This document shows positions 23,378 through 30,753 of a stretch of 64,000 bases of DNA, piece after piece. Source of the stretch: Marinobacter shengliensis (GTDB lineage: Bacteria; Pseudomonadota; Gammaproteobacteria; Pseudomonadales; Oleiphilaceae); NCBI RefSeq assembly GCF_003007715.1, contig NZ_PXNO01000027.1:124001-188000 (forward strand). Reading direction: 5' to 3'. How positions within the stretch are numbered: the first letter of the stretch is position 1; each line of letters opens with the position of its first letter. The position numbers and the translations under genes are program-made. Under the pieces are notes generated by a model. It saw only the letters and a list, made by a program, of their open reading frames with translations, was not told the DNA's origin and did no database searches.

Positions 23378-25021
23378 TTATCGCAGTTTGGTTTCCCGCA
23401 GTTTCAGGATGAATTCCGGCGGCTCAAAGGTATCGGGCCGGGCTTCTTCCCAGTATTTGTCGAATACCGTCAGGCCGGTTTTGCCTTCCAGCAGGGCGCC
23501 GGGTTCCAGAAACGGGAACAGGTCCAGATAGCTATGTATTTCCGTTTTGGAGACGCGCCGGACAATATGCTCGGGGCCCAGTTCGGAGGGGTGTTTCAGG
23601 CCAGATGCTTCCAGCAGGTTCTGAAGGGCGTCCAGCGTGTTCTTGTGGTAGTTGAATACCCGTTCGCTTTTCAGGGGAACGTCCAGTTTGTTGCCCCGGC
23701 GTGGGTCCTGGGTGGCTATCCCGCTGGGGCAGCGTCCGGTATGGCAGTTAAGGGCCTGGATGCATCCCAGGGCAAACATATAGCCGCGAGCGGCGTTACA
23801 CCAGTCTGCACCGAGTGCCAGGGTGCGGGCAATGTTAAAGGCCGAGGTGATCTTTCCGGCGGCGCCAATGGCGATGTCTTCCCGAAGGTTGGTGCCTACC
23901 AGGGTGTTGTGTACCAGCAACAGGGCTTCGGTCATGGGCATGCCCAGCCGGTTGATGAACTCGAGGGGCGCGGCACCGGTTCCTCCTTCGCCGCCGTCTA
24001 CCACAATAAAATCAGGCTTCTTGCCGGTTGCCAGCATGGCTTTGACAATGGCAAACCACTCCCAGGGGTGACCAATGGCCAGTTTGAAACCGACCGGCTT
24101 GCCACCGGAGAGTTCGCGAAGCTGCTCCAGAAACTCCAGAAGCTCTACCGGGTTGGAAAAAGCGGAATGGCTTGCCGGGGATACGCAGTCTTCGCCGACC
24201 TGAACGCCTCGGGCTTCGGCAATCTCTTGGGTTACTTTTTCACCGGGCAGAATGCCGCCATGGCCGGGTTTGGCACCTTGGGATAGTTTGACCTCTATCA
24301 TTTTAACCTGATCAATGCAGGCATTTTCCCGGAACATATCCGGGTTAAAGCTGCCGTCTGGATGTCGGCAGCCGAAATAGCCGGAACCAATTTCCCAAAC
24401 CAGATCGCCGCCTGGCTTCCTGTGGTAACGGGAGATAGAGCCCTCGCCGGTGTCGTGGTAGAACCCGCCTTTGCGCGCACCGGAATTCAGGCTGAGAATG
24501 GCGTTGGCAGACAGCGAGCCAAAACTCATGGCGGAAATGTTGAAGACGCTGGCGCTGTAGGGCTTGTCGCAGTTCTTGCCGATCACAATACGGAAGTCGC
24601 TGGAGCTCAACTTGCTTGGTGTAAGGGAATGGTTCATCCATTCGAACCCCTCCTCATACATGCCGAGTTGTGAGCCAAACGGTCTCTTATCGAGTACGTT
24701 CTTGGCCCGTTGGTAAACAATGGTGCGTTGTTCCCGGGAGAATGGCCGTTCTTCGGTGTCTGACTGGATGAAGTACTGCCGGATTTCCGGCCCCACGGAC
24801 TCAAACAGGTAGCGAAAGTTCGCCATGATCGGATAGTTGCGACTTACCGTATGACTTCTCTGAAGCAAATCCCAGGTTCCCAGGGTGGTCAATCCAGCGA
24901 AAATCAATGGAATAACGTATCCAGCGCCTGCCCACAAAGTGATCGGTAAGGAAATGATCAGACCGGCAATGCTGATTACATAGGCCGAGTAGCGCAGCGG
25001 GAAGGTGGTGGTTTTCGGCAT
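23378..25021 (-). CDS. FMN-binding glutamate synthase-domain protein (GltB2-type)
   Basis: 547 residues. Two N-terminal hydrophobic helices (about 11-50) anchor a domain homologous to the FMN/Fe-S synthase domain of GltB: SAMSFGSLSANAILSLNSGA, LSQGAKPGHGGILPGEKVT, DFIVVDGGEGGTGAAPLEF and NCHTGRCPSGIATQDP with clustered cysteines. The glutaminase domain of true GOGAT is absent, so ammonia-dependent glutamate synthesis or another FMN reaction is possible; the physiological substrate is not known. AGAGG precedes the ATG. It is divergent from the BCCT gene. Confidence 0.9.
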   Translation of the reverse strand: MPKTTTFPLRYSAYVISIAGLIISLPITLWAGAGYVIPLIFAGLTTLGTWDLLQRSHTVSRNYPIMANFRYLFESVGPEIRQYFIQSDTEERPFSREQRTIVYQRAKNVLDKRPFGSQLGMYEEGFEWMNHSLTPSKLSSSDFRIVIGKNCDKPYSASVFNISAMSFGSLSANAILSLNSGARKGGFYHDTGEGSISRYHRKPGGDLVWEIGSGYFGCRHPDGSFNPDMFRENACIDQVKMIEVKLSQGAKPGHGGILPGEKVTQEIAEARGVQVGEDCVSPASHSAFSNPVELLEFLEQLRELSGGKPVGFKLAIGHPWEWFAIVKAMLATGKKPDFIVVDGGEGGTGAAPLEFINRLGMPMTEALLLVHNTLVGTNLREDIAIGAAGKITSAFNIARTLALGADWCNAARGYMFALGCIQALNCHTGRCPSGIATQDPRRGNKLDVPLKSERVFNYHKNTLDALQNLLEASGLKHPSELGPEHIVRRVSKTEIHSYLDLFPFLEPGALLEGKTGLTVFDKYWEEARPDTFEPPEFILKLRETKLR

Positions 25022-25296: not shown

Positions 25297-26889
25297 GTGG
25301 GCGAGGTAGTGAAAGACGAATATCAGACGGATTACGTCGCAGGCCAGGACAACATAAGACCGTTTGGACTGGACCTCCATAACTGGGTATTCCCGGTCAC
25401 ATCAGTCATTGTTGTGCTGTTTGTCATAGCAACCCTGATGTTCCCGACAGCCGCCAAGGAAACGTTGGACGGCATGAAGTGGGACATTATCGGATCCTTT
25501 GACTGGTTCTTCCTGATCAGTGCCAACATCTTTGTGGTGGTTAGCCTGGCCCTGATCTTCATGCCCGTAGGCAAAATACGGATTGGCGGTCAGGAGGCAA
25601 CGCCGGAATTCTCGACAATGTCGTGGTTTGCCATGTTGTTCGCAGCGGGTATGGGGATTGGCCTGATGTTCTGGGCCGTAGCAGAACCCGTGGCTTACTA
25701 CACCGGCTGGTATGAGACGCCGTTCAATGTAGAGGCGAACTCGGCCGAGGCCCGTAACATGGCCATGGGCGCGACTCTGTACCACTGGGGTCTGCACCCA
25801 TGGGCAATCTACGCTGTGGTCGCCTTGTCGTTGGCGTTCTTTGCTTACAACAAGAACATGCCCCTGACCATCCGCTCAGCCTTTTTCCCGCTCCTGAAAG
25901 ATAAAGTGTGGGGCTGGCCTGGGCATGTCATTGATGTGCTGGCAGTGGTCGCCACCATCTTTGGTTTGGCGACGTCCCTCGGCTTTGGTGCGCAGCAGGC
26001 TGCCTCGGGCCTGGACTACCTGTTTGGTATGGGCGCCGGGATCAATGTTCAGATGGCCATTATTGTTGGTGTCACGGCATTGGCGCTGATTTCGGTGCTT
26101 CGCGGTCTGGATGGCGGCGTCAAGGTGCTCAGTAACATCAATATGGTCACCGCTGGCGTCCTGCTGGCCTTCGTGATTTTCGCTGGCCCGACCCTGGCCA
26201 TCGTCGAGACCATCTGGATTACGTCATCCACCTACGTGGCTAACGTGGTGCCTCTGAGCAATCCGTTTGGCCGTGAAGACGAGGCCTGGTTCCAGGGCTG
26301 GACTGTCTTCTACTGGGCCTGGTGGATTTCCTGGTCACCGTTCGTGGGTATGTTTATCGCCCGGGTGTCCAAGGGCCGGACAGTGCGCGAGTTTGTAACT
26401 GCGGTACTGATCATCCCAACCCTGATTACCACCGTGTGGATGAGTGGGTTTGGTGGCTCCGCCCTGGATCAGATCCAGCAAGGCATGGGTGCACTGGCAG
26501 AGGACGGCCTGACAGAAGTCTCGCTGGCGACTTTCCAGATGTTCGCCAACCTGCCGCTGACCGGAATCATCTCCTTTGTGGGTATTGTTCTGGTGCTGGT
26601 GTTCTTCGTGACATCGTCGGATTCTGGCTCACTGGTCATCGATAGCATTACTGCCGGTGGCAAGACCGATGCACCGACGGCTCAGCGTGTGTTCTGGGTG
26701 GTGATGGAAGGTGCGATTGCCGCAGCCTTGATCTTTGGTGGCGGTGACGACGCCCTGGGGGCCATTCAGGCGGTGGCCATCAGTGCCGGCCTGCCGTTCA
26801 CTGTCGTGCTGCTGATCATGACATGGGGCCTGTTGAAAGGCCTGACACACGAACGAAAACTGTTGTTGCAACGCGGTGAGCTGCTCTGA
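25297..26889 (+). CDS. BCCT-family transporter (glycine betaine/choline/carnitine type)
   Basis: 530-residue inner-membrane carrier with 12 predicted helices. Seen: AAGMGIGLMFWAVAEPVAYY (helix 3 substrate region), HWGLHPWAIYA, the aromatic box and signature WTVFYWAWWISWSPFVGMFI followed by ARVSKGRTVREF, and SSDSGSLVIDS. BCCT proteins import quaternary ammonium compounds, often for osmoprotection in marine bacteria. The cytoplasmic tails are short, so strong osmosensing of the BetP type is less likely. The start is GTG at 25297 with AGGAGG 7 nt upstream. No betaine catabolic genes are adjacent. Confidence 0.95.
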   Translation: MGEVVKDEYQTDYVAGQDNIRPFGLDLHNWVFPVTSVIVVLFVIATLMFPTAAKETLDGMKWDIIGSFDWFFLISANIFVVVSLALIFMPVGKIRIGGQEATPEFSTMSWFAMLFAAGMGIGLMFWAVAEPVAYYTGWYETPFNVEANSAEARNMAMGATLYHWGLHPWAIYAVVALSLAFFAYNKNMPLTIRSAFFPLLKDKVWGWPGHVIDVLAVVATIFGLATSLGFGAQQAASGLDYLFGMGAGINVQMAIIVGVTALALISVLRGLDGGVKVLSNINMVTAGVLLAFVIFAGPTLAIVETIWITSSTYVANVVPLSNPFGREDEAWFQGWTVFYWAWWISWSPFVGMFIARVSKGRTVREFVTAVLIIPTLITTVWMSGFGGSALDQIQQGMGALAEDGLTEVSLATFQMFANLPLTGIISFVGIVLVLVFFVTSSDSGSLVIDSITAGGKTDAPTAQRVFWVVMEGAIAAALIFGGGDDALGAIQAVAISAGLPFTVVLLIMTWGLLKGLTHERKLLLQRGELL

Positions 26890-26904: not shown

Positions 26905-26947
26905 GGCCACAAAAAACCGGAGCTTAGTGCTCCGGTTTTTTGTGGCC
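26905..26947. terminator. Bidirectional intrinsic terminator
   Basis: A 19-bp perfect stem (26905-26923 with 26929-26947) has a 5-nt loop and A6/T6 runs inside the arms. It ends both the BCCT gene and the convergent ATP-grasp operon. Confidence 0.93.
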
Positions 26948-26956
26948 TGCCGCTTG

Positions 26957-27904
26957 TCAGAATTTCCCGAAAGCTCCCATCGCGTACTGAACACGCTCCC
27001 TGGGGCTGAAATGAGGGCGCTTAAGGGCCTCGATGTTTCTCAGCCTGGGTAACAGCCCCTCCCCGTTAGCCATCTGTATGGCCAGGCCAGGGCGTGCGTT
27101 GAGTTCCAGCAGCAGGGGGCCTTTCTGGGTGTCGACCACCAGGTCTACGCCCATATAGCCCAGCCCGGTGGCTTCATAGCATCGGGACGCCATTTCCAGC
27201 ATGTCTTCCCAGCTGTCAATCTGGATGTTTTCCAATGCCAGGCCAGTGTCCGGGTGCAGGGTGATCGGGCGATTGAACTGAACCGCGTTGAGGCTGCGGC
27301 CGGTGCCTATGTCCAGGCCAACACCAACGGCTCCCTGGTGCAGGTTGGCTTTGCCATCGGAATCCTTGGTGGCCAGTCGCAGCATGGCCATCACCGGATA
27401 ACCCTGGAAGATAATGATGCGGATATCCGGAACGCCCTGGAAGGAGTATCTGGCGAGGGAGGGGGTGGACTGTACCAGATCTTCCACAATCGCGACGTCT
27501 GGCGTTCCTGCCAGGGAATAGAGGCCGGCCAGAATGTTGGTCAGATGGCGTTCGAGCATAGCCACGGAAATACGGGCGCCAGAGGCCTTGACGTAGTCAT
27601 CGCCATCTCGCCCGGTGATCACGGTAATGCCTTTGCCACCGGAACCTTTGGCGGGCTTGATGGCGAAGCCAGCGAGCCCCTCGGCAATTTCCCGAAAATG
27701 GGATATTTCGTGTTGCTGGCGAACTACCTGCAACAACTCCGGGGTTTTGACGCCGTATTCGCTGACTGCCAGCTTGGTTTTCAGCTTGTTATCAACCAGC
27801 GGATAAGACTCCCGTTCATTGTACCGGGAAATGTAGTCCACATTTCGCCGGTTCATGTTCAGGATGCCAAGCTTTTTCAGTTTTCTGGGGGAAATCCAGT
27901 CCAT
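26957..27904 (-). CDS. RimK-related ATP-grasp ligase (alpha-L-glutamate ligase-like)
   Basis: 315-residue ATP-grasp enzyme. Seen: N-terminal NRRNVDYISRYNERESYPLV and lid motif FAIKPAKGSGGKGITVI (about 80-96); further on VPDIRIIIFQGYPVMAMLRL and the metal-binding end GVDLVVDTQKGPLLLELNAR. The family ('alpha-L-glutamate ligase-related') is expected to join an amino acid to a carboxylate on a protein, peptide or small molecule; the substrate is unknown. It is the last gene of a three-gene operon, 1 nt after the 7TM protein and downstream of a retropepsin-like protein. This clustering is conserved in many gammaproteobacteria. Confidence 0.9.
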   Translation of the reverse strand: MDWISPRKLKKLGILNMNRRNVDYISRYNERESYPLVDNKLKTKLAVSEYGVKTPELLQVVRQQHEISHFREIAEGLAGFAIKPAKGSGGKGITVITGRDGDDYVKASGARISVAMLERHLTNILAGLYSLAGTPDVAIVEDLVQSTPSLARYSFQGVPDIRIIIFQGYPVMAMLRLATKDSDGKANLHQGAVGVGLDIGTGRSLNAVQFNRPITLHPDTGLALENIQIDSWEDMLEMASRCYEATGLGYMGVDLVVDTQKGPLLLELNARPGLAIQMANGEGLLPRLRNIEALKRPHFSPRERVQYAMGAFGKF

Positions 27905-27905
27905 A

Positions 27906-29423
27906 TCAGTCGTAGGCCTTCATCGGGGTAAAGCGCCTTAATTCGCTGAGCTTGTAACCGGTGTATTGCCCCATCAGCAGGATCAATCCCAGCACCACCA
28001 GATGCAGTTCCGGGAAGTTGAATGTCAGGTGCCCGGCCAGCGACGTGTTCATGGCCAGATAGGCACAAATTGCGACAAACAGGCTGCCGCTGCCTTGTAC
28101 CATAACTTCGCGGGCACCTTCCTCTTCCCAGAGTATGGACATTCGTTCAATGGTCCAGGCAATGATCACCATCGGGAAGAAAGTGACGGTCATGCCGGTA
28201 TTGAAGCCCATTTGATAGCCGATAATACTGAGTCCGGCGGTGATGAAGATCACCAGGATGATCAGCGCAGATATTCGTGAAACCAGAAGCAGGTTGAGGC
28301 TGGAGAGATAGCCTCGTAACAGCAGACCAATAGCGACTACCGACAGGAAAGCGATCAGTCCGGGCACCAGGGTTGTCTGAACAAACGCCACGGCAATCAA
28401 CACGGGCATGAATGTGCCGGAGGTGCGAACCCCGATGACAATCCGCATAAATGCCACGATCAGAGCCCCGATGGGCAGTAGCAGTAGCATCCGGAACATG
28501 CTTTGCTCTTCGATCGGGAGTTGGTAGAACCCCAATACCCCAAGGCCGTTCTTGTTGGCCTCCAGGGTGGCCAGCTGAAGTGCGGGCACCGTCTGCCGGA
28601 GCATGGAGAAGCTTACCTGGGAGTTGTCGCCGCCCACCACATCAAGCAGCGACTCCGACCCCTGGCGCCACAGCAGCAGGTTTTCCGGTACCCCCTGTTC
28701 GGCGGTTCTTGGGTCAAAGGTGAGCCAGCGGTCACCGTTATGTATCTGCAGGAACTGCATCAATTGCTGACGGCGGCGGGCATCTTCCAGTTTGAGTGCG
28801 TCGGCGGTGCGGGCTGGGATGCCAGCATGATTCAGCATTCGAACCAGCATTTGCAGGTAGTTGTCGTCAGCCACCAGCAGGGTGGTGTTCTGGGTTCGGC
28901 TGTCAGGCTGAAGCAGCCGGATTAGCTCCCGTGTCAGGCTTTCCGGAGAGCTGGAGCGTTCGTTAGCCTGGCGCAGTACTTCGCGGACTGCGGTAGCCTG
29001 GGGTTCTTCCCAAAAGGTGGGGGTTGGCCTCGGTTTTCGTGACCGCGCGGATTCCCCGGCACTGTCATCAGGCACAAACTGGGCTTTGAAATAGAGTGTC
29101 TGGGGGCCGGAGACATCCCGCTTGGTCCACTCGGCGCGCCGGCTGCCAGAGGTTTCGATAATGGAGAAACCATAGCCCGGGGACGCTGCTTGTTCGGTGA
29201 GGATGCTGAACCCCGGCGGTTGCTCGGGAATGTGCAGGCTTATCTGTGCCGCCTCATCCTGGCCGACAAAGTCCACCCGGGCTTCGATCATCCAGACTGG
29301 CCTTTGCTCGCCCGTCATCCAGGGGACGCCAAGCTCGATGTGCCGCCAGGTGGCAATGGAAATGCCGGCGGCGATCAGCAGCAGAACAAATGCGTAGAAC
29401 GGCGCTCTGGAGCGGACGGTCAT
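27906..29423 (-). CDS. UUP1-family inactive transglutaminase with 7TM domain
   Basis: 505 residues. One N-terminal membrane helix (about 9-25), a periplasmic region of about 300 residues with a transglutaminase-like fold (about 160-250; MLNHAGIPARTADALKLEDA) lacking a clear Cys-His-Asp triad, then seven hydrophobic helices (about 310-495). This matches the 'inactive transglutaminase' plus 7TM architecture. The ATG overlaps the upstream retropepsin gene stop by 4 nt, and the ATP-grasp gene follows after 1 nt, implying a functional unit spanning periplasm, membrane and cytosol. Biochemical role unknown. Confidence 0.88.
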   Translation of the reverse strand: MTVRSRAPFYAFVLLLIAAGISIATWRHIELGVPWMTGEQRPVWMIEARVDFVGQDEAAQISLHIPEQPPGFSILTEQAASPGYGFSIIETSGSRRAEWTKRDVSGPQTLYFKAQFVPDDSAGESARSRKPRPTPTFWEEPQATAVREVLRQANERSSSPESLTRELIRLLQPDSRTQNTTLLVADDNYLQMLVRMLNHAGIPARTADALKLEDARRRQQLMQFLQIHNGDRWLTFDPRTAEQGVPENLLLWRQGSESLLDVVGGDNSQVSFSMLRQTVPALQLATLEANKNGLGVLGFYQLPIEEQSMFRMLLLLPIGALIVAFMRIVIGVRTSGTFMPVLIAVAFVQTTLVPGLIAFLSVVAIGLLLRGYLSSLNLLLVSRISALIILVIFITAGLSIIGYQMGFNTGMTVTFFPMVIIAWTIERMSILWEEEGAREVMVQGSGSLFVAICAYLAMNTSLAGHLTFNFPELHLVVLGLILLMGQYTGYKLSELRRFTPMKAYD

Positions 29424-30220
29424 GAGTCATCTCCGTTATTCGCTCGCCTGCGGTAGGAGTCAGGAAGTTCCGTGGCGTATTCCTTACCCACGTCAATGAG
29501 CATGACATCCCGCAAAACGTTCCGGCCAATCAGTACCTCGTAGGTCAGGTTAGTCCTGTCGGCCAGGGTAAACTCGGCCACTTGCTGGTGGTCGCCGATG
29601 GCAAACTGGAGCTCCACCACCACGCGCCGTTCGGCTTCTTCGGCACTGGCCTGAATGACCCGAACACGGCGCGATATCTCCCGCTCCATGGTGACCCATT
29701 CGCCGTCCGCACCGGGCACAGGTACCTCAAAGCGTACCCAGTTGCTGCCATCCCGCTCGAAACGTTTGACGTTACGTGCGTGAATCGAGGATGTCTCTGC
29801 GCCACTGTCAATGCGTGCGGTGTAGATGTGCCCGGGGCCGGCCAGGTAAAACTTCTCTATTTCCCCCACAATCACTTTGCCTTTGAGCCTGTCGGCGCGC
29901 CCCTGGTTCTCTGCAACTGCAGGGCAAACCGGTGCTGCGGCTGGCGGGCAAACGGGCCTTTCAACCTGGGTAGCGATAGCATCGAGAATGGTTTGTGTGG
30001 CAGCGTCGCTTTTGTGGAGGAGTTGTTCATGCCGCACGGTGGCGTTGTTTTCCATCGTCACCTGCGTGGCTCTCTGGGTTTGTACCGACGTTCTCAGGTC
30101 TTCCATGTTATTTTTGGGGACCATGAAGTAACGATCTGCCGAGCAGCCGGTGATCACAAGCGCCATGGTTGGAATAACGAACATCAGGAAGCGCCGAGGC
30201 TGGAAGAACCTGTAACCCAT
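29420..30220 (-). CDS. Retropepsin-like aspartic protease, lipoprotein
   Basis: 266 residues. Lipoprotein signal peptide (lipobox ITGC, Cys 26), a helical linker (about 35-85), a Cys/Pro-rich segment (VCPPAAAPVCP), and a C-terminal domain of the RimK-associated 'ATP-dependent zinc protease' family, now regarded as retropepsin-like. The catalytic motif is D138-S-G (ARIDSGAETSSIHA), and a flap and dimer region follows (YEVLIGRNVLRDVMLIDVGK). Predicted location is periplasmic, lipid-anchored. It heads the operon with the 7TM and ATP-grasp genes. The pairing suggests the ligase adds, and the protease trims or processes, the same envelope substrate (inference). Confidence 0.88.
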   Translation of the reverse strand: MGYRFFQPRRFLMFVIPTMALVITGCSADRYFMVPKNNMEDLRTSVQTQRATQVTMENNATVRHEQLLHKSDAATQTILDAIATQVERPVCPPAAAPVCPAVAENQGRADRLKGKVIVGEIEKFYLAGPGHIYTARIDSGAETSSIHARNVKRFERDGSNWVRFEVPVPGADGEWVTMEREISRRVRVIQASAEEAERRVVVELQFAIGDHQQVAEFTLADRTNLTYEVLIGRNVLRDVMLIDVGKEYATELPDSYRRRANNGDDS

Positions 30221-30366: not shown

Positions 30367-30753
30367 TCAGGGTGAAATCAGTTGTTCCTGGCCAAGGGCG
30401 GTTTCCGAGCGGAGAAATTCCTGGATCACCGGGGAGCAATTCAGATAGAACAGCAACAGTTCGCGCTGGATATCCTGATCCTGAATGCGGGAGGCAAAGC
30501 CTACGATGTCTTTCAGCGTCTGGTCGCTCACAGCGCTGTGTTCATTTGTGGGCACTGACTGGCCATAGCGAGAGTTGAGAAGTTGGGTCAGGCGCTCAAG
30601 GTGAAATTCGCCGGTGTGGGTGATGTGAGGCAATACCCGTACAGACTCGCGCCCCGAGTGCGCATCTGAGGTGCAAAGTGCGTCATCCATGCATCCCGCA
30701 CCTGTTGCCGGCATGTTATCTACGCCCAGTTTTCTCCAGAGTGCCTTGAGCAT
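30367..30753 (-). CDS. Hypothetical protein, 128 residues
   Basis: Not recognised. Starts MLKALWRKLGVDNMPATGAG, with three cysteines in the first 30 residues region (GCMDDALCTSD), a middle segment with HITHTGEFHLERL, and a predicted helical C-terminal half (LKDIVGFASRIQDQDIQREL). No signal peptide or membrane helix. AGGA lies about 8 nt upstream of the ATG. It is on the same strand as the retropepsin operon but 146 nt upstream of it, so co-transcription is possible but unproven. Confidence 0.65.
   Translation of the reverse strand: MLKALWRKLGVDNMPATGAGCMDDALCTSDAHSGRESVRVLPHITHTGEFHLERLTQLLNSRYGQSVPTNEHSAVSDQTLKDIVGFASRIQDQDIQRELLLFYLNCSPVIQEFLRSETALGQEQLISP

Follow-up and report, generated by a model that had tools for sequence, protein, structure and literature searches.

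What do a retropepsin-like protease, a seven-transmembrane (7TM) protein and an ATP-grasp ligase accomplish together when their genes follow one another in a single bacterial operon? The question is raised by positions 26,957 to 30,220 of a 64,000-nucleotide stretch of Marinobacter shengliensis DNA (positions 124,001 to 188,000 of contig NZ_PXNO01000027.1; the window), for which a preliminary description had suggested that the product of a cytosolic ligase is passed through, or signals via, the 7TM protein and is trimmed by the protease. The operon is an rloABC system, a type that received its name in 2025 from work on Pseudomonas aeruginosa (PMC12239564), and the reading towards which we lean, as the probable one, is that RloC makes an acidic chain, probably alpha-poly-glutamate, which is exported by RloB and cut by RloA.

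RloB, RloC and the forms of the locus

Lormand et al. (mBio 2025; PMC12239564), in defining the rlo operon of P. aeruginosa, reported that three secreted RloA proteases are redundant and required in hypo-osmotic medium, that RloA in vitro cut reporters with 8 or 10 glutamates and not those with 6 or fewer, and that deletion of rloB or rloC restores hypo-osmotic growth of the triple protease mutant. Loss of the protease is harmful only with working RloB and RloC, and for this reason, together with the anatomy of the three proteins, we regard a make, export and cut model as the best explanation. The suggestion that the system is under-described holds only in part: the operon has been named and studied, with RloA cleavage and rescue genetics published (PMC12239564). 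For RloB and RloC the comparison presented here yields testable roles, which involve a motif for docking, a conserved Arg and a polymer that can be sought.

The anatomy of the window proteins is as had been read from the sequence. The open reading frames (ORFs), in the order rloA-rloB-rloC on one strand with a 4-nt overlap between rloA and rloB and a 1-nt gap between rloB and rloC, confirm that the genes form one unit, and the Pfam matches all lie far above cut-off (PF05618, 112 bits; PF14400, 183; PF14402, 343; PF14397, 308). RloA carries the retropepsin D-S-G motif at D138 and, by pattern, the lipobox ITG-C26 of a lipoprotein. RloB joins its transglutaminase-like region to the 7TM domain and lacks the transglutaminase-fold C-H-D triad, with a gap, M222 and D237 at the triad positions. 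RloC matches TIGR02291 at 416 bits (cut-off 314) and aligns with RimK over D254, E267 and N269, which we take to be metal ligands from the role of the aligned residues in RimK; each is kept in 42 of 43 RloCs. The NCBIfam models named RloA, RloB and RimB also match the operon proteins, those for RloA and RloB below cut-off (NF052267 for RloB, 324 bits against 900).

Profile searches with PF14402, TIGR02291 and PF05618 across 143 genomes of the class bear out the statement that the three families co-occur. PF14402 was found in 26 genomes, of which one (G077, locus L027) was dropped as a false match to an unrelated symporter-like membrane protein, by reading, that we take to be putP-like, leaving 25 with RloB. 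TIGR02291 exceeded 150 bits in 23 genomes, all with PF14402, which is 23 of the 25 RloB genomes; 17 more had weaker matches, giving 40 with any match, and PF05618 was found in 65.

A closer comparison covers 66 RloB loci, made up of the complete set of 26 from the class, 20 regions chosen from the 65 RloB genomes of a phylum search (including all 11 low-scoring ones) and 20 rows of a search with an orphan RloB as query (including six new orphan-like and four sister-like rows, the three weakest being left out). Four locus types were set post hoc by the triad and the presence of RloC, so that orphans lacking RloC are a definition and not a result. RloC was counted as a neighbor if fused to RloB or no more than 300 nt from it on the same strand, RloA if within 300 nt, and tetratricopeptide repeat (TPR) and barrel-like proteins if they matched at 200 and 100 bits, respectively. 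RloC stands beside RloB in 57 of the 66 loci, the nine others being eight orphans and L139, where the contig ends. The classical type, defined by an adjoining RloC, comprises 43 loci including L139, with RloA on the same strand in 40, and the RloA-B-C order on one strand recurs among the compared loci. Two loci (L187 and L188) have an RloB without the transglutaminase region, RloC in both, and possibly a barrel protein upstream, a weaker reading than that for the sister type below, consisting of sub-threshold matches and a final F. Across these loci it is the RloB 7TM domain together with RloC that forms the constant core.

The C-terminal tail of RloB tracks this core. An E-x-x-R-F motif is found in all 58 RloB loci with RloC (counting L139, where RloC is inferred at the contig end) and in none of the eight without it, and we therefore propose it as a candidate docking site for RloC. 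Where this motif stands elsewhere, six of the eight orphans end in W-[LIM]-x-E-P. Within the 7TM domain R427 is invariant in 46 loci and R327 is R in 44 of the 46, as would be expected for the path of an acidic chain. At L249 (6475-8991) the two proteins are one 838-aa ORF, with an RloB that has an intact triad at residues 21-526, RloC at 548-830, and a TPR protein encoded after it. ATP-grasp enzymes work in the cytosol, and the fusion therefore places the RloB C-terminus on the cytosolic (ATP) side.

Trees were built from the first 46 loci at most, among which were 8 of the 13 sister loci and 2 of the 8 orphans. The first eight sister loci group together for both the 7TM domain (99/96) and RloC (100/97), and in the RloC tree the 32 classical RloCs fall together on the same side of one branch (97/98). 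The 7TM tree, with weak inner branches and long-branch warnings, was used for tight groups only. The correlation of tree distances between the 7TM domain and RloC (r 0.91, n = 41) was given no weight as evidence, since high values arise from vertical inheritance by itself.

The sister type, 13 loci defined by the intact C-H-D triad, has RloC in 13 of 13 and RloA within 300 nt in none. A TPR-rich protein is present in all 13, with a hydrophobic stretch at the N-terminus in 12 (the thirteenth has an uncertain start), and a barrel-like exported protein in 11, the exceptions being L184, where the contig ends too soon, and L249, where none was recognised. Neither protein was found in the other 53 loci at the 200-bit and 100-bit thresholds; in L234 a single TPR match of 119 bits, at a distance of 3.5 kb, falls short of the threshold. 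The barrel reading draws on one above-cut-off Pfam match (MtrB/PioB, L150) and sub-threshold matches in L146 and L182, and the proteins share mutual similarity, hydrophobic N-termini and, in 6 of 11, a final F or Y; those of L145, L239 and L240 have no Pfam match. Clusters of a triad-intact transglutaminase-7TM protein, an RloC-like ligase, a TPR protein and, except in the truncated L184, a barrel-like protein lie at L145, L146, L150, L182-L186 and L238-L241, and some have upstream a gene for a TPR lipoprotein or for a protein that we presume to be PepSY-like. Possibly, these clusters point to a secreted form of the machine in other bacteria.

In five of the eight orphan RloBs (L147, L148, L232-L237) an RloA-like gene lies on the opposite strand no more than 300 nt away, and in three rimK is nearby; a search for further orphans in two small orders, one represented by 4 genomes and the other by 1, found none. 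Over all 66 regions, rimK lies within ~1.2 kb of rloB in five (L139, L187, L234, L235, L236), against an expectation in the whole fetched regions of ~0.25, a rough figure that assumes 3.2 Mb per genome for loci that are partly dependent. A rimB-like gene accompanies rimK in four of the five. Three of these loci (L234, L235, L236) are orphans without RloC, and the rimK product was reported to make poly-alpha-glutamate (PMC12239564); RimK may therefore serve as the ligase of orphan RloBs.

A proposed make, export and cut mechanism

We put forward the following mechanism, in which product chemistry, the export step, docking, the identity of the membrane that carries RloA and the role of the dead domain are what we infer. 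Cytosolic RloC would dock on the C-terminal tail of RloB (E494-x-x-R497-F498) and build an acidic peptide chain, most likely alpha-linked poly-glutamate, which the 7TM domain would move into the periplasm. There the dead transglutaminase-like domain of RloB may hold the chain or hand it over, and the membrane-anchored retropepsin RloA would trim it to short pieces. In the sister clade, export to the outside or cross-linking, by the intact transglutaminase-fold domain, the TPR protein and the barrel-like protein, would take the place of cutting. The passage of a ligase product through the 7TM protein with trimming by the protease, as first suggested, is partly supported, in that it fits the published genetics, the RloB-RloC fusion, the tail motif and the sister systems. 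Should it be true, many Gram-negative bacteria would have poly-glutamate of non-ribosomal origin in their envelope. More tentatively, as a reading somewhat less likely than not, we suggest that the RloB 7TM domain and RloC represent an unrecognised class of Gram-negative peptide-polymer synthase-exporter, in which a ligase docked at ExxRF feeds an acidic chain through the 7TM domain, the chain being cut by RloA or handled by an active transglutaminase-fold domain with TPR protein and outer-membrane barrel, depending on the clade, and RimK being a possible ligase of the orphans.

Aligned to P. fluorescens RloA (PDB 9g58), the window RloA retains the catalytic Asp as D138, and all four symmetric poly-glutamate contact positions are basic (K46 corresponds to R136, R92 to R184, R114 to R199 and R137 to R222). 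Among 32 RloAs adjoining RloB, position 46 is K or R in all 32, R114 and R137 are present in all 32, and R92 in 30. The PF05618 domain, D-[ST]-G, the basic contacts and an export signal that mark an RloA are all found, the lipobox being read by pattern and not by a signal-peptide program. The window RloA has no cysteine after the catalytic Asp and so lacks the disulfide cysteine pair called conserved in periplasmic RloA orthologs (PMC12239564). The window copy falls in a supported sub-branch of eight rows (99/99 in the RloC tree), and the pair is also missing in six other scored members and, by reading, in L199; on this comparison we treat its absence as a branch difference and not as exclusion from the RloABC systems. 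Position 46 is R in all eight rows (and in a few others), and five of the eight have a lipobox by pattern. In the RloA of L199 (3730-4467), D-[ST]-G-A is replaced by D-T-G-I. The genome of the window carries, at L152, another RloA-like gene with an exported product, which resembles the redundancy seen in P. aeruginosa.

The cleavage of glutamate runs could also mean that RloC and RloB tag an envelope protein or lipoprotein with glutamates and that the tag is taken off again by RloA, in the manner of RimK and RimB with ribosomal protein S6. RloA was indeed reported to cleave a polyglutamylated ribosomal protein in vitro (PMC12239564), RloC matches RimK-like ATP-grasp models, and rimBK genes occur as neighbors. 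RloC is, however, predicted to be cytosolic and RloA is exported, so a tagged protein would still have to cross the membrane, and the TPR and barrel-like partners of the sister clade suit a polymer better; moreover, the authors describe finding no genome-encoded poly-glutamate target, yet keep a post-translationally modified protein possible (PMC12239564). We consider such tagging unlikely. Still less probable, in our view, is a direct origin of the beta-lactam and cell-shape effects, in which the target of RloB and RloC is a precursor of peptidoglycan or one linked to lipid, which they modify and RloA edits. The beta-lactam sensitivity and cell-shape phenotypes of P. aeruginosa (PMC12239564) and the name of the RloC Pfam family, 'sugar-transfer associated', are in line with it, whereas a protease that cleaves glutamate runs of eight or ten residues but leaves six uncut (PMC12239564) is not.

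Signaling via the 7TM protein, the other route first suggested, gained no support. RloB would in that case be a 7TM sensor that controls RloC upon osmotic or envelope signals, with no polymer crossing the membrane, and its 7TM layout with a periplasmic domain would suit a sensor, as would the report that in Vibrio cholerae the rlo genes rank with the loci that the response regulator VxrB upregulates most strongly (PMC12239564). Yet a Pfam search recognised no cytosolic effector domain in RloB, the protease would be left without an obvious role, and the sister systems carry TPR and barrel-like parts; we regard a sensor as very improbable.

Several points weigh against the make, export and cut mechanism itself. 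No product has been seen, eight RloBs have no adjoining RloC, and the fusion is one ORF of one draft genome. Each of the sister and orphan forms may be a single clade, and the clean associations may then stand for few independent events. In sequence comparisons the RloB 7TM domain was not significantly similar to PgsC, which is the membrane subunit in the synthesis of poly-gamma-glutamate, and its single-sequence structural model (predicted local distance difference test, pLDDT, 53) is too poor to judge a conduit. A sequence search of the PDB with RloB gave no match (best E 0.76), and a search of a viral sequence collection gave no confirmed RloB relative.

Operon layout and surroundings

Features of the window operon are listed in Table 1. 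The inverted repeat downstream of rloC is 43 nt long with perfect 19-bp arms (-40.4 kcal/mol, z -8.1); a simple terminator scan did not list it and listed 8 other sites against 4.2 expected, and a simple scan for sigma-70-type promoters gave no match. Neighbor genes beyond the three families were family-searched in a few loci only, which leaves room for cell-wall genes that recur near the operon and would suit the precursor-editing reading. Upstream of rloA lies a 128-aa ORF (30367-30753, minus strand) with no family match; a search of the 45 other loci found it in L201 alone, which belongs to the same genus. The operon is further neighbored by genes for a BCCT-type transporter, of an osmolyte uptake family (25297-26889, plus strand), and a glutamate-synthase-domain protein (23378-25021, minus strand), both of which are near the operon in L201 too.

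Table 1. Positions, in window coordinates, of the rloABC genes, their predicted functional sites and the adjoining repeat
Feature	Position	Strand	Description
rloA	29420..30220	-	retropepsin-like aspartic protease, predicted lipoprotein, 266 aa; protease domain residues 117-249 after a spacer
RloA lipobox cysteine C26 (I-T-G-C)	30143..30145	-	pattern match
RloA catalytic D138 (D-S-G-A)	29807..29809	-	alignment to P. fluorescens RloA (PDB 9g58)
rloB	27906..29423	-	transmembrane helix, transglutaminase-like region without triad and 7TM domain; 505 aa
RloB inactive transglutaminase-like region (PF14400), residues 26-186	28866..29348	-	Pfam match
RloB 7TM domain (PF14402), residues 258-501	27921..28652	-	Pfam match
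RloB C-terminal E494-x-x-R497-F498 motif, proposed RloC docking site	27930..27944	-	comparison of loci
rloC	26957..27904	-	ATP-grasp ligase (PF14397, TIGR02291), 315 aa; predicted metal ligands D254, E267, N269
Inverted repeat with A/T tracts, likely bidirectional terminator	26905..26947	.	between rloC and a convergent BCCT transporter gene

Comparison with known systems

While the operon itself is known, we found no paper in the open-licence literature that treats the RloB-RloC fusion, the tail motif or the sister clusters, nor one on RloB-RloC as the constant core or on the nearness of rimK to rloB, and the words export, transport, lipoprotein, tetratricopeptide and docking are absent from the main text of PMC12239564. 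Part of the neighborhood picture may already be in Iyer et al. 2009, cited by others for the ligase group.

In outline, the system may resemble the poly-gamma-glutamate synthase PgsBCA/CapBCA, with a cytosolic ligase and a membrane partner, although PgsB is a Mur-type ligase and not an ATP-grasp enzyme. Homology of RloB with PgsC was not supported. Both have, by eye, G-x4-G-x3-P after the first helix, a block that hhalign aligns in register, and the alignments with few sequences gave E-values of 0.072, 0.24 and 0.13 (the best in a different register) against 0.38 and 0.17 for reversed controls. Another run gave 0.52 and 0.14 (reversed, 0.66 and 0.67), and more sequences gave 0.4 and 0.099 (reversed, 0.46-0.58), with a score of 17.3 against 11.6 and 12.2 reversed. 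A score of 15.3 lies inside two types of column-shuffled controls (means 13.1-13.9, standard deviations 2.4-2.6, maxima 22 and 23). The score is thus somewhat above most reversed alignments, never significant and well within the shuffles. The PgsC/CapC family PF14102 has no match in RloB or in the window's genome, and a PgsC model (pLDDT 85) had no PDB match at E <= 0.001. A PF14102 match in G349 (L034) was dropped as an unrelated membrane protein by reading, presumably cox15-like. Proteobacterial proteins with a tandem pair of CapC-like domains and a long C-terminal region occur at L029-L033, in open frames of up to 1089 aa.

The TPR and barrel-like proteins of the sister clade bring to mind polymer exporters in which TPR repeats are combined with an outer-membrane barrel (alginate AlgK/AlgE, PgaA); AlgK/AlgE and PgaA export polysaccharides made by glycosyltransferases. 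RimB-RimK, also encoded in the window's genome (L151), is alike in pairing a retropepsin-like peptidase with a RimK-like ATP-grasp ligase. It differs in that RloC has no match to Rimk_N (PF18030) in a Pfam search and in that rim has no 7TM protein, and RimB was reported to have no signal peptide (PMC12239564), whereas the window RloA has a lipobox; with neither the Rimk_N domain nor a cytosolic RimB, the window operon is not a RimBK system.

The closest relative is rloABC of P. aeruginosa (PA14_41690, PA14_41710, PA14_41730), which was reported to affect hypo-osmotic survival, biofilm, beta-lactam sensitivity and cell shape (PMC12239564). Presumably the same genes, PA1766-PA1768, were reported among exopolysaccharide suppressors (PMC7314104), PA1767 of presumably the same operon in ceftazidime mutants (PMC10187892), and Shewanella with a broken 'inactive transglutaminase' gene, presumably of the same system, as hyper-vesiculating (PMC12096838). 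In contrast to P. aeruginosa, the window RloA is a predicted lipoprotein with a spacer, R for K46, a protease domain without cysteines and D-S-G, which also occurs in other branches, in place of D-T-G, and the NCBIfam RloA and RloB scores fall under their cut-offs. What the two operons have in common is the gene order, the three families, the catalytic Asp and the basic contacts and, outside the operon, another gene for an exported protease of the RloA type.

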